From: Pseudomonadota bacterium
Lineage (GTDB): Bacteria; Pseudomonadota; Alphaproteobacteria; Dongiales; Dongiaceae
Assembly (NCBI GenBank): GCA_021792365.1
Contig: JAJYUT010000006.1
Location: 1-64,000 of the forward strand
Direction of reading: 5' to 3'
DNA length: 64,000 bases
In this document: positions 3,981 to 41,059 of the stretch, in pieces
Layout: every line of letters starts with the position of its first letter
Position numbering within the stretch: the stretch's first letter is position 1
Notes under the pieces: model-generated
Seen by the model: only the letters and a program-made list of their open reading frames with translations
Told to the model about the DNA's origin: nothing
Database searches by the model: none
Position numbers and translations under genes: made by a program

Positions 3981-5150
3981 TCAGCGGGTCAGCTCTTCCT
4001 GCCAGATACGCAGGATGTCATCGATGTTCGGCGCGACCGTATAGGTGAGGCTGCGGTCGTAGTTGGTCCACATGTTGGCGACGTCGATGACTGCCTTCTG
4101 CTCTTCCGAGAGCAGGGCCTCGACACTTTTGCTGGGCACCGGACAGGCGCTCCATTCGGTCCAGGCCAGCGCAGTACCCGCCTCGGTGGATACCAGGTGC
4201 TTCAGCAGGTCCTCGGCCAGTTCGGGATCCGCCGGGTCCTTGACCACAGCGGTCGCTTCGAGCCAGATCACGCCCTGCTTCATGCCGTTGATCGGCTCTG
4301 GCACGAAGCTCACGATTTCCATGTTGCCGGCCTTGCGCATGCCGGACGCGATGTAGTTGCCGCCGGCGAGGAAGATGAGCGCCGAGCCGTCGAGCAAGGC
4401 GCGCTGCGCCTGGACCAAGTCGGCGGTGATCAGGCGGGTATTGTTGAACAATGCGCGGAAGACCTTGCGCACCTCGTCGAGCTGGTTCTGATCCAGCGGT
4501 TCGAACGGATTGATGCCGGCGTAAAGGATGACCTGAAAGGTCGCCCAGTCGCCGAAATCGAGGATGCCGATGCGGTCGCGGTTGGCCGGATCGAAGACTG
4601 GCGCATAGGAGTTCCAGTCCTCCGGCTTTGAATGCTTGGTGTTGATGTTAACGCCGACCCATCCCCAGCGAGTTGGCAGGCCGGTGATCCTGCCATCCCA
4701 CATGAGCGGTTCGAAGGGCTGAGCGAATTGCGGGTAGAAGGAATCGAAGGTCTCCCGGAACGTCGCGGCATCCAGAAAGTGGCAGATGTCGGCCGCTCCC
4801 ATGCGCTGGATCCATGGCACGTCGTTGGTGATGACGTCGTAGTCGCGGTAGCCGCCCGCCACCATCTTGGTGAAGGTGCCGCCCGAATCGGTGAGCGAGG
4901 TGAACTTGATGCGCGTGTCGTGTGCTTTCTCCCAGCTCCCCACCACTTCGGGTGCCTGGTAGCCGTCCCAGCCGACATAGTTCAACTCTCCAGCGGCGTG
5001 AGCTGGCCGCGGCGGGCCCGAGGCTCCGCCTACGGCCAACGCGGAGGCGCCGGCAGCTTCAAGAAAACGACGCCGGGTCAGGCCGGGCCCGGTGGCCGGA
5101 GCCTGGGCGGTTCCCTGGTGATGCAAGTCCACATAGCTTAGTCGCTTCAT
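3981..5150 (-). CDS. PotD-like ABC transporter substrate-binding protein (Tat signal)
   Basis: A 389-residue periplasmic binding protein of the spermidine/putrescine type. The N-terminus carries a twin-arginine signal (LTRRRFLEAAGASALAVGG, residues about 24-42) with an Ala-rich cleavage region. The mature part begins ELNYVGWDGY, the usual first beta strand of this class, and later has YDVITNDVPWIQRMGA and LDQNQLDEVRKVF. AGGGAGAG precedes the ATG at 5150. It lies 48 bp behind the deacetylase gene and belongs to the importer encoded upstream (ATPase 9020, permeases 7860 and 6988). The family handles polyamines, opine-like and other small amine compounds, so the ligand is open. Confidence 0.88.
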   Translation of the reverse strand: MKRLSYVDLHHQGTAQAPATGPGLTRRRFLEAAGASALAVGGASGPPRPAHAAGELNYVGWDGYQAPEVVGSWEKAHDTRIKFTSLTDSGGTFTKMVAGGYRDYDVITNDVPWIQRMGAADICHFLDAATFRETFDSFYPQFAQPFEPLMWDGRITGLPTRWGWVGVNINTKHSKPEDWNSYAPVFDPANRDRIGILDFGDWATFQVILYAGINPFEPLDQNQLDEVRKVFRALFNNTRLITADLVQAQRALLDGSALIFLAGGNYIASGMRKAGNMEIVSFVPEPINGMKQGVIWLEATAVVKDPADPELAEDLLKHLVSTEAGTALAWTEWSACPVPSKSVEALLSEEQKAVIDVANMWTNYDRSLTYTVAPNIDDILRIWQEELTR

Positions 5151-5198
5151 TGCGCTCTCCCTGTTTCTGTCGTTTTCGGTTTCTTGTCGACTGCGGCG

Positions 5199-6137
5199 CT
5201 ACTCCGCCGCCTTCTGGCGAAGCTCGGGCAACGGCTCCGCGTAGTATGGGAATGCGTGGCGCCGCGGCGCCCAGGCGCCGGTGGCGGCGCAGGCCGCGAC
5301 GTGCGCCGCGATGTCCTCGAGCGCGGCGATCCAGACGTCGCCTTGCGCGGTGATTTCGGCGAGCCAGTCGGCGAGGCGATCGACCCGCGACAGACGTCCG
5401 GTCACGAAAGGATGCCAGACGGTAATCACCATGCCGCCGTGACGCCGCGCCGCCTGCAGCTCGGCATCGTAGACCGCGAAGGCTTCATCCGGCGAACGGA
5501 TCGGCATGACATAGTTGAATTCGTGCGCATGAGTGAAATGCGCCCAGTCGTCCATCGCATGATGGGTGGGCAGGACCGTCAGTGGCCCCGCCGCGGTCTC
5601 CAGCACGTAGGGGACGTCGTCGCCCATCAACGTCGAATCGTAAAGGAAGCCGCGCTCCGCCAGCAGCCGGGGCGTGTGCTGCGAGGCCGAGTAGAGCGGC
5701 CCGCGCCAGCCGCGCGGCGCCTTGCCGGTCAGCCGCTTGATGACCTCGACCTGGCGGTCGAGCCAGTAGGCCTGCTCCTCCACCGGTTTGTCGTTGGCCG
5801 CCTCATGCAGGTAGCCGTGGGCGGCGATTTCGTGGCCGTCCTTCAGGATGGCCTCCACCAGATGCGGGTATTTCTCCATGCACCAGGCGGGATAGAAGAA
5901 GGTCTGCTTCAGTCCGTAATGGCGATAGAGCTCGAGCAGGCGCGGCACCGCCAGCTCGTCGTATTTGAGCCACGAGATCGAAGCGAGGAAATCAGGCGAC
6001 CGGTCCGGATAGGCGATGTGGATCAGGCTGTCGGTATCGACGTCGAAGGTGATCGCCAACGCCGCCTTGGCGCCGCCGGGCCACGGGACCGGGTTGTCGA
6101 TCCACCTGAACGGGTTGGCGGTGCTTTGTTTGCTCAT
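5199..6137 (-). CDS. polysaccharide-deacetylase family (HpPgdA/PuuE-like) amidohydrolase
   Basis: A 312-residue CE4-fold hydrolase. The first catalytic/metal motif is ALAITFDVDTDS (D32, D34) and the metal histidines are in IAAHGYLHEA (H107, H111). A WRGPLYSAS segment and YDSTLMGDDVPY follow. The FDVDTD form, without signal peptide or membrane anchor, resembles the HpPgdA / PuuE / cyclic-imidase branch more than secreted chitin deacetylases. Members of that branch open cyclic amides such as allantoin or imides, though peptidoglycan deacetylation is also known. The ATG at 6137 overlaps the stop of the permease gene (ATGA), so the two are translationally coupled. Its place between transporter genes and the ureido hydrolase favours a cytoplasmic ring-opening step. 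Confidence 0.82.
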   Translation of the reverse strand: MSKQSTANPFRWIDNPVPWPGGAKAALAITFDVDTDSLIHIAYPDRSPDFLASISWLKYDELAVPRLLELYRHYGLKQTFFYPAWCMEKYPHLVEAILKDGHEIAAHGYLHEAANDKPVEEQAYWLDRQVEVIKRLTGKAPRGWRGPLYSASQHTPRLLAERGFLYDSTLMGDDVPYVLETAAGPLTVLPTHHAMDDWAHFTHAHEFNYVMPIRSPDEAFAVYDAELQAARRHGGMVITVWHPFVTGRLSRVDRLADWLAEITAQGDVWIAALEDIAAHVAACAATGAWAPRRHAFPYYAEPLPELRQKAAE

Positions 6138-6988
6138 GTCGCCACCTCCGGAACAGCTGCAGCAATGCTGCCATGCGCCCGTGCGGCGCCGCGCCGCCGC
6201 ACCGCTTCGGCCGCGACGACGAGGATCGCCATCGGAATGAGAACAAGCGTCGCCAGCGCCGGGTAGAGGGGCGACGAGTTGTAGGACAGTCCGGCATAGA
6301 CGAAGGTCGGCAGGACGCTGCTGGTGCCGGCAAGGTTGAAGGAGATGTAGAAGTTCGACCAAGACAGCAGGAAGCTGAAGATCGCCGCGGAAAGAATGCC
6401 GGGCCACAGCAACGGCAGGGTGATGTCGCGATAGATCTCCCAGGCCGTGGCGCCGCAATCCGCTGCCGCCTCTTCCACCGAGCGGTCAAGGCCGGCCAGT
6501 TGCACCCCGACCACGACCGCCGCGAACGGCATCGTATACACGATGTGGCCGATCGCCGCCGACCACAGCCCGAGCGAGTAGTCGAAGAGATTGGCCCCCA
6601 TTGCGAACCACAGCAGAAGAATGACCCCGAGCAGGAGTTGCGGCATCGCAATGGGACTCAGCACGAAGACGCCGATTGCCGTCCTGCCGCGTAGGCGAAC
6701 GCGCTGCAGGCCGAGCGCCAGCAGCGTGCCCAGGGTTGTGCTGACCAGCATGGTGATGACCGCCAGCAGCAGGGAGTTGCGTGCCGCTTCAGGGAGGTCC
6801 GGATGCTCGAAGATGGCCGCATACCACTTCAGCGTCACGCCGTCGAAGGGCAGCACCAGGTAACGTCCTTCGCGCACGGAGAAGACGAGCAGGGTCACCA
6901 GCGGCAGGTAGAACAGCGCCAACGCGGCGGCGAGGCTGCCATAGAGAACGAGGCGGATGGCGGTAAGCTCCAGCTTCGACCAGGTCAT
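6134..6988 (-). CDS. PotC-like ABC transporter permease
   Basis: A 284-residue inner-membrane permease with about six helices, beginning MTWSKLELTAIRLVLYGS. The cytoplasmic EAA loop is visible as EEAAADCGATAWEIYRDITLPLLWPG, the contact site for the ATPase. I start it at ATG 6988, which overlaps the stop of the preceding permease as ATGA; a longer open frame to 7228 is only antisense overlap. Together with the 6985-7860 gene it forms the membrane channel of the PotABCD-type importer of this operon. Confidence 0.88.
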   Translation of the reverse strand: MTWSKLELTAIRLVLYGSLAAALALFYLPLVTLLVFSVREGRYLVLPFDGVTLKWYAAIFEHPDLPEAARNSLLLAVITMLVSTTLGTLLALGLQRVRLRGRTAIGVFVLSPIAMPQLLLGVILLLWFAMGANLFDYSLGLWSAAIGHIVYTMPFAAVVVGVQLAGLDRSVEEAAADCGATAWEIYRDITLPLLWPGILSAAIFSFLLSWSNFYISFNLAGTSSVLPTFVYAGLSYNSSPLYPALATLVLIPMAILVVAAEAVRRRGAARAHGSIAAAVPEVAT

Positions 6989-7860
6989 GTCCGGCCTCGC
7001 ATCCGCTTGATCTGCCATCCGGCGATCGCCATGGTGGCGATCGTCACGGTGAAGAGGACGACCGTGAGCGCCGCCCCAAGCGGCCAGTTGACGCGTGTTT
7101 CGAACGTCTGGCGGATGAGCGTCCCCATCATGGGGTCCTTGCCGCCGCCAAGGACGCGCTCCTCGACCAACGAACCCATGCTGAGGATGAAGACGAAAGC
7201 GCCACCCGCGAGCACGCCCGGCAAGCACAAAGGCAGCGTGATGTCGCGAAACGCCCGCAGGTGCGACGCGCCGGAATCATAGGCCGCGAGCAGAAGGTCG
7301 CGATCCACCGCCGAGAGCGAGAGATAAATGGTGAAGATCATGAAGGGCAGCAAATTCGCGGTGATGCCCAGCAGAGTGGCCGCCAGAGTAAAGACGAGGC
7401 CGGTGTCGTAGTCGGCGGGCACCACGGCCAAGGCCCGGAGAATCCAGTTCAGGATTCCCTCCTGGTCGAGGAACAGAACCCAGCCATAGGTCTTGAGCAC
7501 CATGTCGCTCAAAAACGCGAACAGGATGGCAAGCTTTATATGCGCGTCATAGGCGGAGAGCCGGGTCACCATCACATAGGCGACCGGGAAGGCCAGCGCA
7601 AAGCAACACAGCACCGCGAGCGCCGACATCGCCAGGGTGCGCAGCAGCGCGAGCCAGATATGCGGAGCGGAGAACACGCTGATCCAGGTATCCAGGGACC
7701 ACACCCAGGCAACCCGGAAATTCTCGCTGGCCTGGAAGGTGAGCAGCAGCAGGAGCACGATGGGCACGCCATAGAACGCGAGCTGCCACGACCCGGCAGG
7801 CGTCAGATAAAGCAGGAGCTGTCGAGGCACTTCCGCCCCCAGTGGCGTCATGCCGGTCAT
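6985..7860 (-). CDS. PotB-like ABC transporter permease
   Basis: A 291-residue permease of the spermidine/putrescine class. It opens MTGMTPLGAEVPRQLLLYL, followed by a first helix (FYGVPIVLLLLLTF), and contains the EAA-type loop YDSGASHLRAFRDITLPLCLPG. The ATG at 7860 overlaps the stop of the ATPase gene (ATGA). The next permease again overlaps at its end, so ATPase, two permeases and the amidohydrolase form a tightly coupled translation unit. Confidence 0.88.
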   Translation of the reverse strand: MTGMTPLGAEVPRQLLLYLTPAGSWQLAFYGVPIVLLLLLTFQASENFRVAWVWSLDTWISVFSAPHIWLALLRTLAMSALAVLCCFALAFPVAYVMVTRLSAYDAHIKLAILFAFLSDMVLKTYGWVLFLDQEGILNWILRALAVVPADYDTGLVFTLAATLLGITANLLPFMIFTIYLSLSAVDRDLLLAAYDSGASHLRAFRDITLPLCLPGVLAGGAFVFILSMGSLVEERVLGGGKDPMMGTLIRQTFETRVNWPLGAALTVVLFTVTIATMAIAGWQIKRMRGRT

Positions 7861-9020
7861 GACGGCTCGACCGCAGTGACGAAGGCAGCCCGCGCGTCCC
7901 ATTCCAGGGGCACGACTTCGCCGATGCGCGCCAGATCGCTGCGCGCGCCCTGCACCTCAAAGGAAACCGTCAGCCCCGAGGCCGTCGTCGCCCGGAACTG
8001 GGTGGTGGCGCCTTTCATGAATATCTCGGCGACGCGGGCCATGAGGCTGCCCTCGCCGCCGGCCCGAGACGACAGACAGACATGTTCCGGCCGCAGCATC
8101 AGGCAGGCCGGCTTGGCAAGGGCGCCGTCGACGATCAGGCCGGTGGCAAACTGCCCCGGATCCAGACTGATGCTGGCCTGCCCGCCCCACCTGAGCCTGC
8201 ACGCGAAGCCGCGATCGTTCCGCTCGATCGCCACGACGGGGATCAGGTTCGGCTCGCCGATGAAGGAGGCCACGAAGGCATTGGCCGGCCGGTAGTAGAT
8301 GTCGCCGGGCGTGGCGTATTGCAGGATCTCGCCGTCGCGCATCACGCAGATCCGGTCGGCGAGCACCATCGCCTCCTCGAGGTCGTGCGTCACATGGAGG
8401 AATGTCACACCCACCTTGCGATGCAGATCGCGGATCTCGGCCTGAAGGTTCTTCTTGAGCTTGGCATCCAGGGCGCTCAGCGGCTCGTCCAGCAGCAGGA
8501 TGCTGGGCGAGAGGGCGAGCGCGCGGGCCAACGCCACCCTCTGCTGCTCGCCGCCCGACAATTGGCGCGGCAGTCGCCCTGCATAGTGCTCCGGCAGGTG
8601 CATCAGCGCCATCAGTTCGCCGACCCGCGCCGCGACGGCGGGAGGCGGCAGACCCTTGAGCTTCAGCGGATAGCCGATATTGGCGCGCATCGACATGTGC
8701 GGAAACAGCGCCAAGCGCTGGAAGACCATGCCGGTCGGCCGCCGTGCCGGCGTCTCGCCAGTGACGTCGACGCCGTCGATGAGAATGCGCCCACGATCAG
8801 CGGTCTCGAAGCCGCCGATGATGCGCAGCAAGGTCGACTTGCCGGAACCCGAGGGACCGACCAGTGCGACGAACTCGCCGCGCCTGATGTCCAGATCGAT
8901 ATTCTTCAGGACAGGGAGGGCCGCAAAGGCTTTGCTCACCGAGGCGGCGCTGAGAATCGTGTCGGCGGCGGCCGCGGCGGCTCCGCGTAGGCCGAGATCG
9001 CGGCCCGGCCGCATCAGCAC
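7857..9020 (-). CDS. PotA-like ABC transporter ATP-binding protein
   Basis: A 387-residue ATPase with Walker A GPSGSGKST, Q-loop VFQRLALFPH, signature LSGGEQQRVALARAL, Walker B ILLLDEPLSALD and H-loop VTHDLEEA. A C-terminal TOBE-type regulatory domain (about residues 270-385, with MLRPEHVCLSS) is typical of PotA/FbpC. It energises the importer formed by the next two genes. GTG at 9018-9020 gives the full frame; ATG at 9012-9014 is an equally possible start, and no strong Shine-Dalgarno decides between them. It is the first gene of the minus-strand operon, divergent from the TetR gene at 9236. Confidence 0.88.
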   Translation of the reverse strand: MLMRPGRDLGLRGAAAAAADTILSAASVSKAFAALPVLKNIDLDIRRGEFVALVGPSGSGKSTLLRIIGGFETADRGRILIDGVDVTGETPARRPTGMVFQRLALFPHMSMRANIGYPLKLKGLPPPAVAARVGELMALMHLPEHYAGRLPRQLSGGEQQRVALARALALSPSILLLDEPLSALDAKLKKNLQAEIRDLHRKVGVTFLHVTHDLEEAMVLADRICVMRDGEILQYATPGDIYYRPANAFVASFIGEPNLIPVVAIERNDRGFACRLRWGGQASISLDPGQFATGLIVDGALAKPACLMLRPEHVCLSSRAGGEGSLMARVAEIFMKGATTQFRATTASGLTVSFEVQGARSDLARIGEVVPLEWDARAAFVTAVEPS

Positions 9021-9151
9021 TGCACACCCACTGCGACATCCGTGCCCGGTCCCCCGAGTCGCGGGCCGCCGCAGCTGAACATCCCTCCCGGATGCTGACT
9101 CGGCCTCATCGCAATCCTCAATCCTAGAGTAGGCTCGTTTCTTATAGTCAT

Positions 9152-9183
9152 CTCTAATTTAATTCCCCAATTTGAAATTAGAG
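9152..9183. promoter_or_regulatory. 32-bp palindrome, candidate TetR operator
   Basis: CTCTAATTT at 9152-9160 and AAATTAGAG at 9175-9183 are perfect inverted 9-mers separated by 14 AT-rich bases. The site lies in the 215-bp gap between the divergent importer operon and the TetR gene, 53 bp before the regulator start. Position, symmetry and AT content fit an operator controlling both directions. Confidence 0.55.
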
Positions 9184-9235
9184 TCAAGTGGCATAGATTG
9201 CAGGAAACCGTCGCGATGTTCGGGAACATGGGAGG

Positions 9236-9910
9236 GTGCCTGTTTTGGAGAACCGAAGGAGCTCGAGTCTGCGGGAGCGCCAGAAGCAACAGCGCAGCCA
9301 GCGCATGTTGGCTGCGGCTAGCAAGCTATTCAACGAGCGCGGCTATCCGGATGTGACGATCGAGGAGATCGCGGATCTCGCCGAGGTCTCGCCGGCCACG
9401 GTACACAATTATTACTCATCAAAGGACAAGCTACTGCTCTCCATTGTCGAGGAGGGCGATGCCGGTATCTTTGGCCGCCTGCTCGACTTGGCGCGGAGCT
9501 TCCGCGGCACGCCGAGCGCGGCCATGAACAAGGTCCTCACTGAGATTACGCTGCGCTCCCTCGATTACCTCAACCATAAGGTCTGGCGCCACGCGATCGC
9601 GGCGAGCATCACCAGTACCGATTCCGAGTACCGCGTGGGCTTCTCGGAGATCCACGAGCGGTTCGCCAAGATCGTCAACGAGACACTGGCATGGGTCCTT
9701 GCCCGGAACGGAGTGGAGCTGCCATCCGACCAGGCGCGCATCCTCGGCAGCGCGCTCTATAAGATTCAGCATACGCTGTTCATCGCGCTGATCATCGCCG
9801 CCAAGCCGGATATCGAGTGCTACAAGCGCGAGCAAGCCGAGCACGTAGCGCTGATCATGACCGTGGTCGATCACCTGGCAGCGACAGCGAAGCCCGTTCG
9901 AAAGCTTTGA
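9236..9910 (+). CDS. TetR/AcrR-family transcriptional regulator
   Basis: A 224-residue regulator. The N-terminal helix-turn-helix spans about residues 20-67: MLAAASKLFNERGY, VTIEEIADLAEVSPATVHNYY, then SSKDKLLLSIVEEG. The remainder is a helical ligand-binding and dimerisation domain without recognisable specificity. The start is GTG at 9236 with GGGAG just upstream. It is divergent from the PotABCD/amidohydrolase operon and probably represses it through the palindrome at 9152-9183, with a pathway compound as inducer (inference). Confidence 0.88.
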   Translation: MPVLENRRSSSLRERQKQQRSQRMLAAASKLFNERGYPDVTIEEIADLAEVSPATVHNYYSSKDKLLLSIVEEGDAGIFGRLLDLARSFRGTPSAAMNKVLTEITLRSLDYLNHKVWRHAIAASITSTDSEYRVGFSEIHERFAKIVNETLAWVLARNGVELPSDQARILGSALYKIQHTLFIALIIAAKPDIECYKREQAEHVALIMTVVDHLAATAKPVRKL

Positions 9911-10115
9911 GTTGACGCACGCGCTTGCTGTTCATCCTGCGGCGCCCGCGCAGCTCCTTGGCTACCGAGTGACTGCTCCGGAAACAATCGCCACGCCGAT
10001 CCGGTCGGGTTCCGCCGCATGTGGCGCAAACGACCATTAGAACAAGACTAGGGTCAAGACCCGTAAACTGAGCGAAAGACTCGGATGACGGCTTCGGGAC
10101 CAGAGCAGATCTTTG

Positions 10116-11069: not shown

Positions 11070-12851
11070 ATGAAACACGTATCGGCTCTCCAGCGCATGA
11101 CCGGCAGCGCCACCGGCGCGCGGCGTCCGTTTCTCCTGTTCTTGCCGCTGGTCGCGCTCTGTGTCATCGCAACAAGTCTGGCGCGCGCCGATGATCTTCC
11201 GAAGGACGTGCTGCGGCTGCTGCTGTGGCAGGCGCCAACAACCCTCAATCCGCACTTGTCTCCGGGCGTCAAGGACCAGACGGCAAGCCGGATCAGCTAC
11301 GAGCCGCTGGCGAGCTTCGATCAGAGCGGCACGTTGATTCCCTTCCTCGCCGCCGACATCCCGTCGCTCGACAATGGCGGGGTCGCACCCGACGGAAAGT
11401 CAGTGGTGTGGAAGCTGAAGCGCGATGTGAAATGGTCGGACGGCGCGCCCTTCACTGCCAAGGATGTCTTGTTCACCTATCAGTTCATCACCAATCCTGA
11501 TGTCGGCTCCTCCAGTGTCGCGAGCTACAAATCAGTTCAAGATGTCGAGGCGGTGGACGACTACACCATCAGAATCACCTTCAAGGACGTTACGCCGGCC
11601 TGGGCGCTGCCCTTCGTCGGCGTTCAGGGCATGATCATTCCGGAACACGTCTTTTCCCCATACAACAACGCCAATATGGCGGCGGCGCCTGCAAACCTCG
11701 CACCGGTCGGCACCGGACCCTACATCGCCAAGGAGTTCCGCACTGAGGACGTGCTGATGATCGGGGAGGATGTCGTCAATACCGTCAAGGTCATCTACGA
11801 GCCGAACCCTTTCTACCGCGATGCCGGCAAGCTCTCCTTCAAACTGGTCACGCTGCAGGGCGGCGGTGATGCGACCGTGGCCGCCAACGCCCTGCTGCGC
11901 GACGGCGTGGTCGACTATGCGTGGAACTTACAGGTCGACGACAAGACCTTGACCGAGATGGAGGCCAAAGGCGTCGGCAAGGTTGCGGTGTCCTTCGGCT
12001 CCTATATCGAGCGCGTCATGATCAACTTCACAGATCCGGACAGCGAGACTCCGGAAGGCGAGCGGTCGAGTACGCAGTTCCCTCACCCCTTCCTCAACGA
12101 CAAGGCAGTGCGTCAGGCGCTGGCACTGTCGATCGACCGGCAGAAGATCGCGGATCTCTATGGCCGCACCGGCCGGGTCACCAGCAACATCCTGGTCGCG
12201 CCGTCCGTCTTCAACTCGTCGAACACCAGCTACGCGTTCGACCTCGAGAAAGCCGCGGCGATCCTGGATCAGGCCAGTTGGGTCGACAGCGATGGGGACG
12301 GCGCGCGCGACAAGGATGGCGTCCGGCTCAGCGTCCTGTTCCAGGCGAGCGTCAATGCCGTGCGCCAGCAGACGCAGGAGATCATCAAGCACGATCTCGA
12401 ATCGATCGGCATCCTGGTCGAGAACAAGATGATCGATTCAAGCATCTTCAACGGCCAGGCCAACGACAACACCAACACGCGGCGTCACTTCTACGCGGAC
12501 ATCGAGGAGTTCGCCTACGGCAGCAAGAGTCCGGATCCGGGTGGGTACATGCGCGGCTGGACGTGCGCGGAAGCGGCGCAGATGGCGAACGCCTGGGCTG
12601 GCCTCAACAACAGCCGATACTGCAATCCCGACTTTGACGCGCTCTACGAGGCCTCGACGACAGAAATGGATGCCGACAAGCGGCGGGAACTGTTTATCCA
12701 GATGAACGATCTGCTGATCGAGGATGTCGCCGTCGTGCCGATGGTCCACTGGGCGGACGTCTCGGGGCTTCGCGCGGACATCGAAGGATTCGATCCGACC
12801 CCGTGGGATTCGGAGACCTGGAACATAGCCGACTGGCATCGAAAGCCATGA
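11070..12851 (+). CDS. family-5 (peptide/oligopeptide-type) solute-binding protein, no permease nearby
   Basis: A 593-residue periplasmic binding protein of the DppA/OppA class. It has an N-terminal signal ([20 protein letters not shown]) and GGGAGG just before the ATG. Class features are [58 protein letters not shown], and [21 protein letters not shown] near residue 350. The usual permease and ATPase genes are absent here. Instead the gene is followed after 16 bp by a giant hybrid histidine kinase with a large periplasmic loop. That arrangement suggests that the binding protein presents its ligand to the kinase, or to a transport system encoded elsewhere (inference). Confidence 0.88.
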
Positions 12852-12867: not shown

Positions 12868-18006
<5,139 letters not shown>

Positions 18007-18009
18007 GCG

Positions 18010-18378
18010 ATGGCGATTGCACGCAACGCGCTTGACAAGCTTCTTGAGCTGATTGGAGGAGATCACGCCTCGCTCGCCGAACTGATCGAGAGTTTCCTGA
18101 ACGAATCGCCCTTGTTGCTTGCCCAGCTGCAACAGGCGGCAGGCGCCGGCGACCGCACGAGCCTGGGCCGGGCAGCTCACACGCTGAAATCGAGCGCCCG
18201 TGACTTCGGTGCCAGCGAGCTGGCTGCCTCTTGCGAAGTCCTGGAGAAACAATGCCGCGAGGGCATGCCAGGCGAGGCTCAGGCTAAGGTGGAAACGATC
18301 ATCGCCGAGTGCACGTCGGCACAGAAGGAACTTGGTATGCACTTGGCTGCATTGAACCGGGGGGACTGGTCAAAATGA
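18010..18378 (+). CDS. HPt-domain phosphotransfer protein
   Basis: A 122-residue single-domain histidine phosphotransfer protein. The active site is H57 in AAHTLKSSARDFGA, and the whole chain fits the four-helix HPt bundle. It begins 3 bp after the hybrid kinase stop, and its own stop overlaps the next start (ATGA). It is therefore the intermediate between the kinase receivers and the receiver of the REC-EamA protein. Confidence 0.92.
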   Translation: MAIARNALDKLLELIGGDHASLAELIESFLNESPLLLAQLQQAAGAGDRTSLGRAAHTLKSSARDFGASELAASCEVLEKQCREGMPGEAQAKVETIIAECTSAQKELGMHLAALNRGDWSK

Positions 18379-19934
18379 ATGTCACGGTGGCAGAAGCATT
18401 GCAGGGCGATCCCGCGCGTCCAGGTGCACGTATTCTTATTGTCGACGATTCGAGCGTGGTGCGTCTGAAGCTCAGGAAAGCGATCGAAGCGCTCGGCCAT
18501 GAGGCGGTCGCCGTCGAGAGCGGCAAGCTGGCGCTCGAGCAGGCCGGCAATTCGTTCGATCTCGTCCTTCTCGATATCGTCATGCCTGAAATGGATGGGT
18601 TCGATGTGCTGAGGGCACTCAAGGGTTCCCGTGCCACACGAGATCTGCCGGTGATCGTCATCTCGGCTCTCGATGAGGAAATGAGCAGCGTGGTAAAGGC
18701 GATCGAATTCGGCGCAGAAGATTTCCTGCCGAAGGACTTCGAACCCGCACTACTGGAAGCGCGTGTCTCGACCTGCATAGAAAAGAAGCGACTCCGGGAT
18801 ATTGAAAAGGAATACCTTGGGCAGGTTGCCAAGCTGACACGAGCCGCCACCGCCCTCGAATCCGGTAAGTTCAATCCGTCCAAGCTCGGCCTTCAGGATG
18901 TTACCGGCAGATCCGACGGTCTGGGAAAGCTCGCCAAGGTCTTCACGGCTATGGCGCAGCAGGTGTATGAGCGCGAACGAAAACTGCGGCAATATGTTCG
19001 CACCTTCCGAGGCGGCCTGCTTCTCCTGGCGTGCGGTGCGCTGTGGGGTCTGATGGTGCCCCTCTCAAAGATGGCAGCCGGCATTGCCACACATCCCGTT
19101 GGTCTGGCGCTGCTTGTGGATGTGCTCGGGGCAGCATTTTGCATAGGCTATTCGGCCAAGCGAAGAACACTGCCTCGCCTGAGCAGTCTGACTCGAAAGC
19201 ACTGGGCCTATATAGGAGGGTTGGCTTTCCTAAGCGCCGTCATCAACCAGGTGCTGGTCTATTGGATGACGAGCAAGCTCCCGGCCTTCATGGTGTCGAT
19301 TGTGATTGTTCTTGAAGGATTCGCGGTCTTTCTTTTCGCCGCGGTCATGCGAATTGAGTCGCCTCGCGTGAAGCGTTTTGTCGGCCTGGCCCTGGGGCTG
19401 GCCGGCGTCGGCATTATCGTTGTTTACGGCGAGGCCGCCGGCAGAGAGGGGAATTGGCTATGGATGGCGCTTGCGCTGTTGATTCCTGCAACCTATGCAG
19501 CGGAGGACCTCTACATATCCGAGCGACGGCCATCCGACATCGATAGTATCGCCGTTCTTGGCCTCTCACTCATTGGCGCATGCTTCATGCTCTTGCCTCT
19601 CGCGGTCGCCCTCGATGACTTCATTCCACTTGAGCTGCTCACTGGCAAGCTTGGCATCATCGTCGTTCTCATTGCAGTCGCATCAACACTAGCAATGATC
19701 TTCTTCATCTATGTCATAGCGACTACAGGCGCGGTCTTCGCCAGCCAGAGCGCTTACGTGACAACAGCAGCTGGTATCGGATGGAGTATTGTTCTACTAG
19801 GTGAATATATCCCCCTGTGGACTTGGGCGGCCCTTGGCTTGATCATCGTAGGGTTGCTCATGGTTGAGCCTAAGCAGGAAGCGGAGGAGGAGCCGCCGCT
19901 ACTCGATGGAGCTATCGAGGACCTGCCCATATGA
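18375..19934 (+). CDS. response-regulator receiver fused to a 10-TM EamA/DMT transporter
   Basis: A 519-residue fusion. Residues 18-140 are a receiver domain with the acidic pair D24/D25, phospho-acceptor D67 (LVLLDIVMPEMDG) and conserved FLPKDF lysine. Residues about 140-210 form a helical linker (LTRAATALESGKF, then GLGKLAKVFTAMAQQVYERE) like the coiled linkers that join signalling domains to their output. Residues about 213-505 show ten hydrophobic helices in two five-helix halves, the EamA (drug/metabolite transporter) pattern, for example GGLLLLACGALWGLMVPL and LWTWAALGLIIVGLLMVE. I chose ATG 18375, overlapping the HPt stop. The frame is continuous from receiver to membrane part, so this is one chain unless an assembly error joined two genes. 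Phosphorylation may gate or tune transport (inference); the substrate is unknown. Confidence 0.85.
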   Translation: MNVTVAEALQGDPARPGARILIVDDSSVVRLKLRKAIEALGHEAVAVESGKLALEQAGNSFDLVLLDIVMPEMDGFDVLRALKGSRATRDLPVIVISALDEEMSSVVKAIEFGAEDFLPKDFEPALLEARVSTCIEKKRLRDIEKEYLGQVAKLTRAATALESGKFNPSKLGLQDVTGRSDGLGKLAKVFTAMAQQVYERERKLRQYVRTFRGGLLLLACGALWGLMVPLSKMAAGIATHPVGLALLVDVLGAAFCIGYSAKRRTLPRLSSLTRKHWAYIGGLAFLSAVINQVLVYWMTSKLPAFMVSIVIVLEGFAVFLFAAVMRIESPRVKRFVGLALGLAGVGIIVVYGEAAGREGNWLWMALALLIPATYAAEDLYISERRPSDIDSIAVLGLSLIGACFMLLPLAVALDDFIPLELLTGKLGIIVVLIAVASTLAMIFFIYVIATTGAVFASQSAYVTTAAGIGWSIVLLGEYIPLWTWAALGLIIVGLLMVEPKQEAEEEPPLLDGAIEDLPI

Positions 19935-20058
19935 AGTGAATGTCGGCGTCGGGCCAAAGGGCACCCTAGTCTTTGCGACTTCGCCATTGGAGTGGCGGCT
20001 TCGGCCCGATGCCGGACAGAGCGCATGCTGCTGGACCTCCCAACATAGGAGGTATGCC

Positions 20059-32658: not shown

Positions 32659-35600
32659 TCATGGCTGGCTGGTGTTGTTAGATTGCGTCACCTTACGGAT
32701 GTCCACGACGGCGAGCTTGCCCGTGAAGTAGGATATCGCAACCGTGAACTGGCCGTTGGTTGGCGCTTGCGGAGCGGTGAAATGCTCGAGCATGGCCTCA
32801 CTAATGCCTGTGCTGATGACCAGCCTTTTCCTTGCCTCCAGGAATGCCCTTGTTCGGTTTGTTTCGTTGATAACAAAGACCTTCGTGACGCGCTCCGCCT
32901 GCACCCTCACCTGGATCGTGCCGGTCGTGGGCATGTCGATCTTGACAGGTTTCGAAAAGGAGACTTTGGGTGGACCGGTATTGATCGTTGGCGTGGTGCC
33001 AACGATCGGGACGAACTTCACGCCCGTCGTCACGACGTACTCAAATGTCTGGTCATTCCACAGCGGTGGAGATGTCACCTCACTTAACGCTGGAGGATCA
33101 ATGTTTCCTGCAAGCGTGAAGAAGAACGGTCGGCCCCATGCATGGTGGCCGCCGCTGCTGGCAATATCGACCATCTTGTCGGCCCGCGCCATTGGGACGA
33201 CCTGGCCATCAACCAGAAACTCGAACGCGACCTTGATCCGAACGACACTTTCCGATGGCGGCGGACCTCCGCTGTTCGATCGGGGGGCTATGTAGATGTT
33301 AGCTGGGGGTGAACTGGAGCCGCTCGTGCTGCCGCTTCCGCTTGATGCGAACTGGTGACGAAAAGCCGCCACGCGGAATTTCTGACCGGCCGAGGGTTGT
33401 GAACCCCCGCCGCTCTGCCCAGCAACTGCTCCGTCGGGGCCTATCCCTGCCGCTGCGGTGCTTTGATCGATTTGGTTACCGATTTCCTGGGCTGCGTTGA
33501 GTTCGCCGCCGCGTTCCGAGACGGTGCCTTTGCCTGGTGGCTGTTGTCCGCCGCCCCCGCCGAGGGTGGGCATTCCTCCGGCGGCAGCAACCAGCTGGGC
33601 CGCGATGCGCATGCGTTCGGTGTTGTTGGCCATGACGGTCGCCAGCGTGTTGGCCGCCTGCTGGCCGGCGGCGGTAGCGCCTTGTGCCGAGGCCTGCACG
33701 CCGGCCTGGGCAAGTGCCGCGGTCTGCGCGAGGCCACTCATGTCGCGGAACATATTGCCCTGCTGGATGGCACTGAGGATCGCTGCGACGCCGGTCGGAT
33801 CGGGCAGCGCCGTCGGGTTCTGGATGGTCACCACCGGCGCCGACAGCTGGCCAGGCCGGATCTCGTCTGACTGCGCCCGGCTGCCCGCCTGGACCGGCGC
33901 GATCTCCGGCGCGGTAATGGGAATGGGTGAATCCTGCCAGTTCCAGAACCGGGTCAGGTCGATCTTCTCCGCCGCGTTGAAGCGCCCGAGCACCGCTTCC
34001 GCGAACACGCCACCCGAGGGCAGCGGGATGATCTCGCTCTTGGGCGCCGGCCGATCGAGCCCATGACGGGCGAGCCAGGCGCGCCATTCCGCCTGCTCCG
34101 CATGCCAGCGCTCGTCCTCGGCATCGCCTTCGGTGCTCACGTTCATTCGGAACACTAGGTAGTTGGCGGTCGAGGCCACTGGTTGAGCGTCCACCAGCTG
34201 GCTGACCGGCAGCCCGCGATAGGTGAAGCCCGCCAGCACGCCGCCCAAAGTCGCCGCATCGAGCGAGCGGAACACCGCCTGGCTGTAATAAAGCCGGTTG
34301 GCTTCCAGATGGTCCATCAGCTCCTGCGCCGCCCCCACAGCGCCGAACTTGATGACATCCTGCAGAGCGCTGGATGGCCCCCCCGCCTTCAGGGCGATCG
34401 GCACGTCCAGCGGCATTGCGGTGCCCGCCACGCTCAACTGCAGCACCAGCAGGGTTCTCAAGTCGCGATCGCCGGCATTCTGGATTGCGATCGACGCCAA
34501 GTCCTTGAGCGCTGTCGGCTGACCCAGCGCAAAGGCGCTCGCGGAACCGTCCGAGGGGGCAATCTCGCTGCCGTCGCGTTTACGCACCGAGAAGCGCAAG
34601 GCCTGCCCGTCGCGCAGTGCGAAGCCCAGCAGCAAGGCATCATCAGAGACGAACACCGTATCCATGCCCGGCCGACCCATGACCCGCCCAGAGGCGAATC
34701 CGACCGCGTTCAGCTGATCGATGTTCCAGCCCTTCTCCGCAAGGATCGCTGCCGCGCTGGTCAACGGCGCACGCCGATAATCGAGCGGCGCGGCTGGCGA
34801 TGGCGCTGCGGGGGCTGCAGGAGCCTCCGGCGTCCCTGGCTCACCGCTTGCCGGGGGTGCCGAAGCTGCTGCCTCGCTCAAGACAGTCTCTCCTGCTGCA
34901 CGGGCCAGCATGGCCCGGCGGACGGGCGTGGCGGTCAGCACATTTGAGAACACACCCGACACAATGATCCGGCCCGGTGTCACCCGCGGCGTCTGCGGGA
35001 TCACCTCCACCACCCCATACTCGACCGTCAGCTGACGCTGTACTCGAGCATTCAAGGCGGCCCGCGCCAGAACCTCGCGCCACCGCTCCAGGACAGTGAT
35101 GTCCTTGAAGTCCAGCAGCTTCAGCGGCACGAACAGGCAGCGCTCCGATTGCTCAAGCAGCGTCGTCACTCGGAACGCCTGCACGACCTCGTAATACTGC
35201 ACCGTCAGCGCATGCATGTGGTTGTAGTTCGTCACCACCCGCGTGCTGATCTGTTCGTGCTCCTCTTGGCTCACCTCGCGAACAATCGAGGCCCGCCGGT
35301 TGCGCACGCTCGAAGCATTCTGCTGGCTACGGTCGTTGATGTTCTGCGCATAGCTCGCCGCCAGATCGCGAGAACCGAAGGATGACGAGGCGCTCATCGC
35401 CTCCGTGGTCGTAGTCGAGCCTGAGGCCGAGCCGCCAAAGGCAACCGGACCAAGCTCGAACCCCAGGGCAGCACCGCCCTGCTCCGTCGTCGAAGTCACC
35501 GAGCTGGTCGATTGCCCGGATTGGAACTCCTTCGCCGTCGCCCGTGTCACCTCTGAGATCGAACGGCTGTGCATCTGAGTATTCGACAGCTGCTCCGCTT

Positions 35601-36402
35601 CTGCGATCGTCTCGCTCGCACTGGCGGAGCTGCGTCGCGACCAATCGATCATGGCGATTCGCGTGCTCTCACCCGGCGCCAGCGAGGTCGAATGCAGCAG
35701 CTGGCCCAGGGTCAGCCCTTGTGCAAACCAGGACTGGCTGAACGTCAGAAGCGCACCGGTCGCCAGCCGCCGAAAGCCGCCCGCCGTCGTGGCCAACGCG
35801 GCCGTCAAATCGATCGCATCTGCCGTCTCCAGCGCCTGCGCTCCGTCCGCTTCTCCGACTGCATCGAACACCAGCTTGCGATAGAATACCCGCTCCGTCG
35901 GATAGACCCCCGAGCGCGGCAATAGATCGTCCGGTGATTCCGGGTCGTAGCCTTGCGCTTCTTCCGGGAAGTAAGCCGCCGCCAGGATGGCCTTGGCTGC
36001 CAGATAGCCAGGCCACTGCGCCAGTTCCCGCACCGTCGACACATCCAGCGCCGCCCCCAGGGCCGCCGCGTCCGGAATCCCCTTCAAGATCGAGATCGGC
36101 TCGTCCGCCAGCTCGTCCACCGGCACGCCGGCGGGCATCGCGACCGCATCCGCCGCAACAATGCCGAGCCGGGCTTCGGCCCGCCGCGAATCCCGTGACA
36201 CTTCAACCAGCAGCTTGGCCGTCGCAAAGACCCGCGAGGCTGCCAAATCGAAAATGCTCTCGATACCAAGCGCCTTCAGCGCCGTCGCTTCATCAGCCGA
36301 AACACCTACAAGCGACCCAACCCCCAGCCGCAACGCCTCGTCCGCCGTCACAGACAAATGCACAGAGCGAAGAGCATCCGCGAAGTTCGGGGCGCTCCTC
36401 AT
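32659..36402 (-). CDS. giant uncharacterised protein A (tandem paralogue)
   Basis: A 1247-residue protein of unknown function. Residues about 15-130 contain two helix-hairpin-helix-like units (DEATALKALGIESIFDLAA; ISILKGIPDAAALGAAL). Residues about 225-430 hold LTLGQLLHSTSLAPGESTRI, a Ser/Thr-rich stretch, then RVVTNYNHMHALTVQYYEVVQ. A Pro/Ala linker lies near 520-560. Residues about 900-1000 are Ala/Gln/Gly-rich with a polyglycine patch. Residues about 11-1000 appear identical to protein B; the first ten and last 246 differ. The tail is beta-rich (VRIKVAFEFLVDGQVV, GTIQVRVQAERVTKVFV) and looks distantly related to the tail of B. No signal peptide or membrane helix. ATG 36402 follows the small gene by 9 bp, making a three-gene operon. 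Confidence 0.8.
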   Translation of the reverse strand: MRSAPNFADALRSVHLSVTADEALRLGVGSLVGVSADEATALKALGIESIFDLAASRVFATAKLLVEVSRDSRRAEARLGIVAADAVAMPAGVPVDELADEPISILKGIPDAAALGAALDVSTVRELAQWPGYLAAKAILAAAYFPEEAQGYDPESPDDLLPRSGVYPTERVFYRKLVFDAVGEADGAQALETADAIDLTAALATTAGGFRRLATGALLTFSQSWFAQGLTLGQLLHSTSLAPGESTRIAMIDWSRRSSASASETIAEAEQLSNTQMHSRSISEVTRATAKEFQSGQSTSSVTSTTEQGGAALGFELGPVAFGGSASGSTTTTEAMSASSSFGSRDLAASYAQNINDRSQQNASSVRNRRASIVREVSQEEHEQISTRVVTNYNHMHALTVQYYEVVQAFRVTTLLEQSERCLFVPLKLLDFKDITVLERWREVLARAALNARVQRQLTVEYGVVEVIPQTPRVTPGRIIVSGVFSNVLTATPVRRAMLARAAGETVLSEAAASAPPASGEPGTPEAPAAPAAPSPAAPLDYRRAPLTSAAAILAEKGWNIDQLNAVGFASGRVMGRPGMDTVFVSDDALLLGFALRDGQALRFSVRKRDGSEIAPSDGSASAFALGQPTALKDLASIAIQNAGDRDLRTLLVLQLSVAGTAMPLDVPIALKAGGPSSALQDVIKFGAVGAAQELMDHLEANRLYYSQAVFRSLDAATLGGVLAGFTYRGLPVSQLVDAQPVASTANYLVFRMNVSTEGDAEDERWHAEQAEWRAWLARHGLDRPAPKSEIIPLPSGGVFAEAVLGRFNAAEKIDLTRFWNWQDSPIPITAPEIAPVQAGSRAQSDEIRPGQLSAPVVTIQNPTALPDPTGVAAILSAIQQGNMFRDMSGLAQTAALAQAGVQASAQGATAAGQQAANTLATVMANNTERMRIAAQLVAAAGGMPTLGGGGGQQPPGKGTVSERGGELNAAQEIGNQIDQSTAAAGIGPDGAVAGQSGGGSQPSAGQKFRVAAFRHQFASSGSGSTSGSSSPPANIYIAPRSNSGGPPPSESVVRIKVAFEFLVDGQVVPMARADKMVDIASSGGHHAWGRPFFFTLAGNIDPPALSEVTSPPLWNDQTFEYVVTTGVKFVPIVGTTPTINTGPPKVSFSKPVKIDMPTTGTIQVRVQAERVTKVFVINETNRTRAFLEARKRLVISTGISEAMLEHFTAPQAPTNGQFTVAISYFTGKLAVVDIRKVTQSNNTSQP
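33404..36373. repeat. 2,970-bp direct repeat, copy 1
   Basis: The segment matches 37633-40602 at a constant offset of 4,229 bp. I found no base difference in the stretches I compared, and all translated frames inside it agree. The edges are sharp: at both ends the sequences diverge at once. It encodes 990 codons of protein A. Confidence 0.92.
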
Positions 36403-36411
36403 AGAGGTTCC

Positions 36412-36843
36412 TTACGGTTCGAGCTTGATATAGGCGCTTAGTCCTTCGATTTCGGGAATCGGAATGGCATCCGACGGCGCCTCTTCAGCCGATATGATTC
36501 CAATTTCCATCCTCTCGATCGGCTCTGTACGGTTTGCATCAGTATGCAAATAGATTTCAGCAATCGCGTTAGCGACAGGCGACGCTATTCTGAGTGACGC
36601 TTCCACCCCAACGACAGATACAGCCACAGGTCTATCCTCATCGAAGGCATAGCTCTCCCCTGCGGACAAAGAGAGTTCTGTGGCACGTCTTATATGCCGA
36701 GATCCGCTTTCGTCGTGCAGCGCGAGGATACCACCCAAAAGCTCGGCACCGCTCTCTTGCGCGGCGGTGTTGACAATTGAAATGTAAAGCCCGCCATCGA
36801 GTAGTGCATTGAGCGCTTCCGCGTCGATCCAGGAGATGGCCAT
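36412..36843 (-). CDS. uncharacterised 143-residue protein between the paralogues
   Basis: A small protein starting MAISWIDAEALNALLDGGLY, acidic overall, ending IEGLSAYIKLEP. Its ATG overlaps the stop of protein B as TGATG, and its end lies 9 bp before protein A. It is thus translated with both. Alternating hydrophobic residues (RPVAVSVVGVEASLRIA, AIAEIYLHTDA) suggest a beta-rich fold. I recognise no family. The context suggests a partner, chaperone or structural component working with the large proteins; an immunity protein would be another idea without direct support. A longer frame from 36903 would overlap protein B deeply and is not needed. Confidence 0.7.
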   Translation of the reverse strand: MAISWIDAEALNALLDGGLYISIVNTAAQESGAELLGGILALHDESGSRHIRRATELSLSAGESYAFDEDRPVAVSVVGVEASLRIASPVANAIAEIYLHTDANRTEPIERMEIGIISAEEAPSDAIPIPEIEGLSAYIKLEP

Positions 36844-39800
36844 CAGTAAATCTCCCCAATCGATGCTGGTGTCCGCACCAGTAGTCGTTGAGTCCAAACC
36901 CATGTAGTTACTTCAAATTTTCCAGGAGCTATCTGTTTACCGTTCCCCCGCGCATGGCTATGCCTCACGTCCGCGGGGAGTGACGCAAAGACTTTGTCGA
37001 ATGCGGCATCGAGATTGGGAGCCTCCACTGTCCAGTCCCGCGGGACGCTTTCCACATCCGCAACCACTCGCAAGGTACCGTCATATGGAACGTCGTACAC
37101 CTTCGCCGTTCCAAAAAAGAGAATGGGTATCTCAGGGGCAATGTCGTTGTCGGCTTTGAACATTCGCACCCGCATCTCGACCGTGACGGTATCTTTCGCG
37201 ATGCTGAGCTTCGGTGACTTGATCTCATTGCTTTGCAACATAGGCACATATGGGTCCGCCTTGGTTCCAGTGCGCCAAAGCATGCTCTCTCCACGACCTG
37301 CGAAGACGCGCACAATTACCTCATGTCCGCGGAATGGCTTACTGATCTCAGTCATGAAACGTACAGTCACCTGGATGCTTCGCGCCTTCGCCCTCCTGCC
37401 GCCTCGACCACGGCCCGCGGGCGCCGGCAAACCGCCTGATGCAGCAATCACCGATCCTTCATCAAGTCCGGTATTATCCAAAAGTGTCTGCACGAACCGT
37501 TCGGTAGTTGGCGAGGTAACACCTCCACCTGCAGCGCCAAATTGCTGACGGAACGTGTCAGCGACGAGCTGGGTCCCTGGGGAAGGCGATCCGCTAGGAG
37601 AGCCGACATCGATCGAATCAACACTGGTACTACCCCCGCCGCTCTGCCCAGCAACTGCTCCGTCGGGGCCTATCCCTGCCGCTGCGGTGCTTTGATCGAT
37701 TTGGTTACCGATTTCCTGGGCTGCGTTGAGTTCGCCGCCGCGTTCCGAGACGGTGCCTTTGCCTGGTGGCTGTTGTCCGCCGCCCCCGCCGAGGGTGGGC
37801 ATTCCTCCGGCGGCAGCAACCAGCTGGGCCGCGATGCGCATGCGTTCGGTGTTGTTGGCCATGACGGTCGCCAGCGTGTTGGCCGCCTGCTGGCCGGCGG
37901 CGGTAGCGCCTTGTGCCGAGGCCTGCACGCCGGCCTGGGCAAGTGCCGCGGTCTGCGCGAGGCCACTCATGTCGCGGAACATATTGCCCTGCTGGATGGC
38001 ACTGAGGATCGCTGCGACGCCGGTCGGATCGGGCAGCGCCGTCGGGTTCTGGATGGTCACCACCGGCGCCGACAGCTGGCCAGGCCGGATCTCGTCTGAC
38101 TGCGCCCGGCTGCCCGCCTGGACCGGCGCGATCTCCGGCGCGGTAATGGGAATGGGTGAATCCTGCCAGTTCCAGAACCGGGTCAGGTCGATCTTCTCCG
38201 CCGCGTTGAAGCGCCCGAGCACCGCTTCCGCGAACACGCCACCCGAGGGCAGCGGGATGATCTCGCTCTTGGGCGCCGGCCGATCGAGCCCATGACGGGC
38301 GAGCCAGGCGCGCCATTCCGCCTGCTCCGCATGCCAGCGCTCGTCCTCGGCATCGCCTTCGGTGCTCACGTTCATTCGGAACACTAGGTAGTTGGCGGTC
38401 GAGGCCACTGGTTGAGCGTCCACCAGCTGGCTGACCGGCAGCCCGCGATAGGTGAAGCCCGCCAGCACGCCGCCCAAAGTCGCCGCATCGAGCGAGCGGA
38501 ACACCGCCTGGCTGTAATAAAGCCGGTTGGCTTCCAGATGGTCCATCAGCTCCTGCGCCGCCCCCACAGCGCCGAACTTGATGACATCCTGCAGAGCGCT
38601 GGATGGCCCCCCCGCCTTCAGGGCGATCGGCACGTCCAGCGGCATTGCGGTGCCCGCCACGCTCAACTGCAGCACCAGCAGGGTTCTCAAGTCGCGATCG
38701 CCGGCATTCTGGATTGCGATCGACGCCAAGTCCTTGAGCGCTGTCGGCTGACCCAGCGCAAAGGCGCTCGCGGAACCGTCCGAGGGGGCAATCTCGCTGC
38801 CGTCGCGTTTACGCACCGAGAAGCGCAAGGCCTGCCCGTCGCGCAGTGCGAAGCCCAGCAGCAAGGCATCATCAGAGACGAACACCGTATCCATGCCCGG
38901 CCGACCCATGACCCGCCCAGAGGCGAATCCGACCGCGTTCAGCTGATCGATGTTCCAGCCCTTCTCCGCAAGGATCGCTGCCGCGCTGGTCAACGGCGCA
39001 CGCCGATAATCGAGCGGCGCGGCTGGCGATGGCGCTGCGGGGGCTGCAGGAGCCTCCGGCGTCCCTGGCTCACCGCTTGCCGGGGGTGCCGAAGCTGCTG
39101 CCTCGCTCAAGACAGTCTCTCCTGCTGCACGGGCCAGCATGGCCCGGCGGACGGGCGTGGCGGTCAGCACATTTGAGAACACACCCGACACAATGATCCG
39201 GCCCGGTGTCACCCGCGGCGTCTGCGGGATCACCTCCACCACCCCATACTCGACCGTCAGCTGACGCTGTACTCGAGCATTCAAGGCGGCCCGCGCCAGA
39301 ACCTCGCGCCACCGCTCCAGGACAGTGATGTCCTTGAAGTCCAGCAGCTTCAGCGGCACGAACAGGCAGCGCTCCGATTGCTCAAGCAGCGTCGTCACTC
39401 GGAACGCCTGCACGACCTCGTAATACTGCACCGTCAGCGCATGCATGTGGTTGTAGTTCGTCACCACCCGCGTGCTGATCTGTTCGTGCTCCTCTTGGCT
39501 CACCTCGCGAACAATCGAGGCCCGCCGGTTGCGCACGCTCGAAGCATTCTGCTGGCTACGGTCGTTGATGTTCTGCGCATAGCTCGCCGCCAGATCGCGA
39601 GAACCGAAGGATGACGAGGCGCTCATCGCCTCCGTGGTCGTAGTCGAGCCTGAGGCCGAGCCGCCAAAGGCAACCGGACCAAGCTCGAACCCCAGGGCAG
39701 CACCGCCCTGCTCCGTCGTCGAAGTCACCGAGCTGGTCGATTGCCCGGATTGGAACTCCTTCGCCGTCGCCCGTGTCACCTCTGAGATCGAACGGCTGTG

Positions 39801-40631: not shown

Positions 40632-41059
40632 GCGCCCCCCGATTCCGCACCACCGAAAGGTCTGATGGGCTTCTTGCTTCAAAGTATGGGAAAGAACGGG
40701 GCACACGAATCCGGGCTTATCCACCCGTGCGTGGCTAAGTGAATTTCCCCTGACGACTTTCCCTGCACGCAAACTGCCGACGCGTCGATCGGCAAGCGCC
40801 TCGACGCGCCTCAACCTACTGCGCGATGTTGCACGCAATCTGTGAGGATCACAAATTCTTGCTAGATCATCCCACGCAAAGCAAGACGATCTCGTTCATG
40901 TCACAGAAAGATTCGAAAGGAGTCGAGACAATGTTCCAAACCGCATTGGCGGTGTATATGTCCGACGACCCCGTGGACTGTCTATACCGTTCACTGAACT
41001 CGGGCTTTTTCGGCACGCTGACTGGAAGATCGATCCTCGCCACGGGCACAACGCGCCGC
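40632..41059. other. upstream region of the giant-protein operon, no gene recognised
   Basis: This gap must contain the promoter of the minus-strand operon starting at 40631. No convincing -35/-10 pair or operator stands out. A plus-strand frame from 40826 shows no family and is probably part of the decayed methylase region that follows. Confidence 0.4.

Follow-up and report, generated by a model that had tools for sequence, protein, structure and literature searches.

The window, meaning the whole stretch of 64,000 nucleotides that was analysed, carries on its plus strand a run of genes in which a solute-binding protein, a hybrid histidine kinase and an Hpt phosphotransfer protein are followed by a single gene joining a receiver domain to a membrane carrier.

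11070-12851, plus strand: periplasmic solute-binding protein of family 5 (SBP_bac_5), 593 aa, 203.7 bits
12868-18006, plus strand: hybrid histidine kinase, 1712 aa (Pfam, transmembrane scan)
18010-18378, plus strand: Hpt phosphotransfer protein, 122 aa, motif AAHTLKSSARD (Hpt, 59.9 bits)
18375-19934, plus strand: fused response regulator-transporter, REC-HAMP-like-EamA, 519 aa in a single open frame
18426-18788, plus strand: receiver domain, residues 18-138 (Response_reg, 83.8 bits; Z about 22 to receivers)
18573-18575, plus strand: codon of the acceptor D67, within the receiver domain
18795-19001, plus strand: HAMP-like linker, residues 141-209, helix, connector (GKFNPSKL) and helix continuing into TM1
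19002-19874, plus strand: EamA/DMT carrier with ten membrane helices (5+5), residues 210-500

Relay genes and their solute-binding proteins

The SBP_bac_5 gene ends 16 bp before the kinase, the Hpt gene starts 3 bp after it, and the start of the fused gene overlaps the end of the Hpt gene by 4 bp. The kinase consists of a transmembrane helix, CHASE3-like periplasmic helices, a second transmembrane helix, HAMP, four GAF domains, HisKA (H1176), HATPase and two receivers, REC1 (D1476) and REC2 (D1623). CHASE3 scored 39.1 bits when the periplasmic part was scanned alone, and the TorS sensor domain gave no match in this kinase, its place being taken by CHASE3.

The earlier note had proposed to look for the fusion together with kinase and Hpt in other genomes, and according to our analysis both genes adjoin it in every complete locus, always in the order hybrid kinase (HisKA-HATPase-REC-REC), Hpt and, as the last gene, REC-HAMP-EamA. 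In this module the start and stop codons of neighbouring genes often overlap. The phospho-His of the kinase and the D-D-D-K residues of REC1 and REC2 are kept in 15/15 aligned kinases, one REC1 Lys position being Arg in one sequence, and the Hpt His is invariant in 13 aligned Hpts (the Hpts of L122 and L123 were read by eye). Kinase, Hpt and fusion are essentially the only window genes, among those searched, that recur in the first nine loci, and therefore the module stands alone.

The sensor half of the kinase varies: in Devosia, on the Mesorhizobium plasmids and at L022 it is built of GAF domains without membrane helices, in the Roseibium group of CHASE5-PAS, and at L124, L126 and L127 it is of the TorS type, at L127 just below the cut-off. 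In all loci whose kinase has a periplasmic sensor (15/15), a gene for a solute-binding protein (SBP) adjoins the module, several unrelated SBP types being represented, and near the modules with a cytosolic kinase no such gene was found (0/3; L018, L022 and L098/L099). This tally is phylogenetically non-independent and covers five or six different pairings of SBP and sensor; the loci being related, 15/15 does not stand for 15 independent events. The rule was fixed beforehand and then applied to three new loci, of which L139 and L140 obeyed both parts and L141, which ends at a contig end, obeyed the first.

In Rhizobium setariae and Mesorhizobium soli an SBP_bac_3 gene lies between kinase and Hpt, DctP adjoins the module at L124 and L127 and SBP_bac_3 at L126, and at L123 an SBP_bac_3 gene follows the module closely, on the opposite strand. 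In the Roseibium group the gene of a 251-aa protein overlaps or abuts the kinase start; this protein has no Pfam match of its own and shares 29% identity with the SBP_bac_3 protein encoded at L123. At the R. setariae locus (L016) a single module is surrounded by three SBP_bac_3 copies that have diverged (4803-5651, minus strand; 8744-9592 and 11677-12498, plus strand).

No permease gene adjoins the SBP_bac_5 gene of the window, upstream of which lies TetR; the opposite strand carries an ABC operon, at 3981-9020, that has its own SBP. The SBP_bac_5 protein is an orphan and likely a sensory partner of the kinase. Permease genes were not found beside the SBPs at the other loci checked either, and these proteins are therefore most simply taken as subunits of the sensor, by analogy with TorT, the binding protein with which TorS works.

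Receiver, linker and carrier in the fused protein

The gene at 18375-19934 had been read in the earlier note as one uninterrupted frame for a complete receiver, a coiled linker and a ten-helix EamA/DMT transporter, and this reading held in everything but the nature of the linker. The frame has 519 codons and no stop. Response_reg matches residues 20-131 with 83.8 bits (Pfam cut-off 30.2) and EamA matches in two stretches, the best of them at 213-349, with 69.3 bits (cut-off 28.2); EamA is the effector attached to the receiver, and no further effector domain was found in the protein. NCBIfam holds no model of the fusion, its matches covering the receiver alone and lying far below the cut-offs. 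In the AF2 model (pLDDT 74.5) the receiver is followed by two helices of the linker and ten that span the membrane.

The receiver part of this model reaches Z of about 22 to solved receivers (VIA-align), PleD receivers being the best solved match. D24, D25, D67, S97 and K120 are all in place in the window protein and are kept in every relative whose receiver is intact, so that what is expected of a response regulator, namely receiver fold, acidic pair, acceptor Asp, Thr/Ser and Lys, is present. Arrival of phosphate at D67 is inferred, and the inference would rest on the adjacency of kinase and Hpt and on the conserved residues only.

With two EamA repeats, ten transmembrane helices and the DMT fold, the membrane part satisfies the structural definition of an EamA/DMT transporter. 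It aligns by VIA-align to 5y78, a triose-phosphate/phosphate translocator (Z 24.6, 289 residues, 3.2 A), to 7paf, the LicB choline importer (Z 22.8), and to SLC35B1 and PfCRT (Z about 21-22). Residues E328, R334, G337, G341, G452, Q458, W470 and E477, conserved in stand-alone relatives, are kept in the fused clade, and their retention together with a full DMT fold makes it unlikely that EamA is a mere anchor. At 315-323 the fused clade has a signature of its own, GFxVFxxAA, where stand-alone relatives mostly have Thr-Tyr at 318-319; it may mark substrate or coupling. Solute transport by the EamA part is a putative function, inferred from signature residues and purifying selection only. The gene neighbours gave no clue to the substrate, nothing being common to the loci beyond module and SBP and no metabolic genes being shared, and the binding proteins, which differ between loci, give no common pointer.

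The linker, described in the earlier note as coiled, is more than a coil, being HAMP-like. Its consensus is AAxxLExGRFNPSxLGLxDVAxRxDGLGRLAxVFxxMAQxVYERE. Pfam HAMP gives it 13.6 bits (E-value 0.089) in the window, 19.0 bits (E-value 0.0018) at L019 and 23.8 bits (E-value 5.6e-5) at L021, the last being the best score and still under the cut-off of 25 bits. Comparison of the linker profile with kinase HAMPs by hhalign was weak (probability 31%) and aligned the DExG helix alone, and membership in the HAMP family is therefore not proven. It also counts against the HAMP reading that HAMP normally comes after a membrane helix, whereas in the fused regulator the HAMP-like unit comes before one. According to the AF2 model, the receiver ends in a helix that extends as helix 124-163, followed by the connector and by helix 182-237, which is the second linker helix and TM1 at once. 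The linker resembles a HAMP unit, below the Pfam cut-off, whose final helix is predicted to run straight into TM1, and this geometry of receiver, linker and TM1 is what passing a receiver signal into the carrier would want.

Recurrence, spread and selection

The same fusion occurs in at least 17 further loci, 42-73% identical, from Rhizobium, Mesorhizobium (chromosome and plasmids), Devosia, Roseibium and others. As a single frame it is found in Rhizobium setariae and Mesorhizobium soli (73% identity to the window protein in each), Devosia sp. 66-14 (67%), two Roseibium (43-45%) and a Rhodothermales MAG (44%), as well as on the Mesorhizobium plasmids pML2037 and MesoLj131c3 (69%), where its RefSeq name is just 'response regulator'; genomes of two more sampled families have further fusions. 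Homologues occurring always as two separate genes would have refuted the earlier claim, and this is not the case: they are fused, with the exceptions of a frame break inside EamA in an alphaproteobacterial MAG (L022) and of a cut receiver in genome G967. In G967 a repeated ORF lies between the kinase and the fused regulator, and the N-terminal part of the receiver is missing from the latter; this 388-aa ORF, with the same start sequence in both copies (L121, 8759-9925, minus strand, and 15514-16680, plus strand), is probably an IS element.

The distribution is rare and patchy, with the fusion in 7/395, 5/395, 2/87 and 3/349 genomes of four samples; these counts include the centre genomes and are lower bounds in the larger samples, where few candidates were scored per genome. 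Two genomes have two or three copies each. Among the relatives searched, no second fused copy was found in the genus and family of the window, and relatives from the genus have EamA as a stand-alone protein only, at about 30% identity. Vertical inheritance within the family was rejected, the relatives searched having no other fusion and those of the genus stand-alone EamA only. Plasmid location in Mesorhizobium suggests horizontal spread. The block 18001-20000 has the lowest G+C among the 2-kb blocks of the window (58% versus 62%), in keeping with horizontal acquisition.

In a FastTree phylogeny of the EamA parts all fused domains sampled form one clade with a support of 0.989, apart from stand-alone relatives, and by HMM full fused copies score 1e-75 or better and stand-alone proteins 1e-54 or worse. 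For the close pair R. setariae and M. soli dN/dS is 0.085 in REC, 0.075 in EamA and 0.024, the lowest of the three, in the linker; every part of the fusion is therefore under purifying selection. A chance read-through of two genes is ruled out by the fused clade and by the purifying selection across the junction.

Several loci contain variants of the arrangement. At L125 (genome G942) two different REC-EamA genes lie side by side, at 6498-8318 and 8473-9966, and a third, partial copy follows the Hpt at about 14570-15025. The gene at 8473-9966 is of the same distant subtype, about 31-33% in EamA, as a second REC-EamA gene of L122 (10129-11664, minus strand), which stands tail-to-tail with the first one. 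In a Granulosicoccaceae MAG (L023, 9992-10648, plus strand) the same receiver and linker are followed by a single transmembrane helix and a stop, without EamA, which makes a membrane-anchored regulator or a remnant possible. In a Gemmatimonadales MAG (L024, 1061-3004, plus strand) a receiver and a very similar HAMP-like linker precede a Ser/Thr kinase domain, recognised by motifs. Going by this sequence, the REC-linker unit seems to be exchanged among outputs.

The carrier as a putative output of the relay

We consider it reasonably probable that the module is a phosphorelay with a membrane carrier as its output, in which phosphate at D67, gating, dimerisation, sign, substrate and direction are all inferred. 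Most likely an external solute controls the carrier through the relay without transcription, phosphorylation, gating and substrate being again a matter of inference. The periplasmic SBP would report the external solute to the hybrid kinase, while at loci with a cytosolic GAF kinase an internal signal would be reported instead, and phosphate would go from the His of the kinase to one of its receivers, further to Hpt and finally to D67 of the fused regulator. Phosphorylation of D67 may then move the alpha4-beta5-alpha5 face of the receiver, whose alpha5 is predicted to continue into the HAMP-like two-helix unit, with the second helix of this unit continuous with TM1. Altered helix packing, probably in a dimer, would bias the EamA conformations and turn transport up or down.

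The wider proposal is that a signal runs from an external solute over a periplasmic protein and a multi-step phosphorelay to a DMT-fold carrier, that the HAMP-like unit works here in reverse, from cytosol to membrane, into TM1, and that a module swapping SBP and sensor and keeping relay and carrier makes a new class of two-component output; for this whole we see an even chance. Module, gene order, conserved residues, fold, fused clade and SBP association were established from sequence, and our best explanation rests on no biochemical data. The interpretation given in the earlier note is supported, none of its refuting conditions that were checked having come true. A change of transport by phosphate on D67 remains an inference, and neither a membrane-anchored phosphate sink nor a carrier acting as sensor is excluded. 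At L126 (431-2278, minus strand) a LuxR-type (GerE) gene overlaps the end of the REC-EamA gene; transcription may therefore also be an output at this locus, which counts against a transporter-only output.

The main rival, which we regard as possible and rather unlikely, makes EamA the input: the carrier would sense or count its substrate, modulate the lifetime of receiver phosphorylation and feed back on the kinase via reversible Hpt. Back-transfer from receiver to Hpt does occur in phosphorelays, and the fused regulator is without any other output domain. Carrier domains are also known on the input side of two-component systems (CbrA, SSS family, PMC7918813). However, the module already has a sensor, be it SBP with kinase or a GAF kinase, the order REC-HAMP-TM places the receiver as the controlling domain, and at most loci there is no other regulator, so that such a feedback would control nothing.

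It is still less probable that EamA serves only as a membrane anchor that keeps a phosphate sink or localised regulator close to the kinase, with transport irrelevant or lost. A hint of it may be seen in the L023 relative, ending in one transmembrane helix after the same receiver and linker, and in the departure of the fused clade from stand-alone relatives around 315-323, but a ten-helix carrier with dN/dS of 0.075 and retained signature residues goes far beyond the needs of an anchor, and no decayed fused EamA was seen except the frame break in the L022 MAG and the partial third copy in G942. Very little speaks for a receiver and a carrier that are fused yet independent and only co-localised. 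CbrA, whose transport has been shown, transports without kinase activity (PMC7918813), and fusion alone is therefore no proof of coupling, but of the three parts the linker is under the strongest constraint (dN/dS 0.024), it is HAMP-like and shares a continuous helix with TM1, and the fusion is always accompanied by kinase and Hpt. An assembly or frame artefact, for which there is nothing beyond the caution of the earlier note about an assembly join, is refuted by the recurrence of the same fusion: independent assemblies contain at least 17 other loci with it, annotated plasmids among them.

The fused protein has a receiver of the same kind as PleD, REC-adenylate cyclase, REC-PP2C and REC-protein kinase regulators; its close REC relatives have cyclase, phosphatase-like and Ser/Thr-kinase outputs (by motifs), with a very similar linker at L024. 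If the carrier is the output, as we prefer, it would differ from these enzymatic-output regulators by acting through an integral membrane carrier instead of an enzyme or DNA-binding domain. Systems of the TorT-TorS type share with the module a periplasmic binding protein beside a hybrid kinase HisKA-HATPase-REC and an Hpt step in the relay, whereas the REC-EamA module has two receivers and a separate Hpt, and its final receiver carries a carrier in place of TorR-like DNA-binding; the window kinase differs from TorS also by a CHASE3-like sensor with GAFs and no TorS domain. To the EamA/DMT superfamily (TPT, LicB and SLC35B1 folds) the protein is linked by Pfam EamA and Z of 21-25 to solved carriers, but its closest module-less relatives stand alone and the fusion adds N-terminal REC and HAMP-like units. 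CbrA/MxtR kinases with an SSS (SLC5) domain likewise combine a carrier and a two-component domain in one chain, the SSS carrier being on the kinase, i.e. on the input, and the DMT carrier on the response regulator, on the output.

Outputs of response regulators are classed as DNA/RNA binding, making or breaking of second messengers, and protein binding. In the open literature searched we found no description of REC-EamA, transporter or transmembrane response regulators, though the main output-domain censuses were not covered and an earlier mention is not excluded. New would be the type of output that this phosphorelay response regulator has, carrier domains on kinases being already known. A conserved, mobile module with a transporter output would add direct post-translational His-Asp control of membrane transport, and if so, cells may switch a carrier on or off directly by what is sensed outside. 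Switch and carrier are one protein here, which bacteria far apart from one another keep together with its kinase, its phosphate shuttle and mostly also a solute-sensing protein, and this protein offers an EamA carrier with a built-in switch. Since relay and carrier are kept and SBPs exchanged, the module is a natural test set for a HAMP-like unit driving, not reading, a membrane domain.

Elsewhere in the window two neighbouring giant ORFs on the minus strand, 32659-36402 and 36843-40838 (1247 and 1331 aa), have no Pfam match and are 97% identical over about 1020 residues. Judged by this identity, a gene for a large protein of unknown kind was recently duplicated in tandem.
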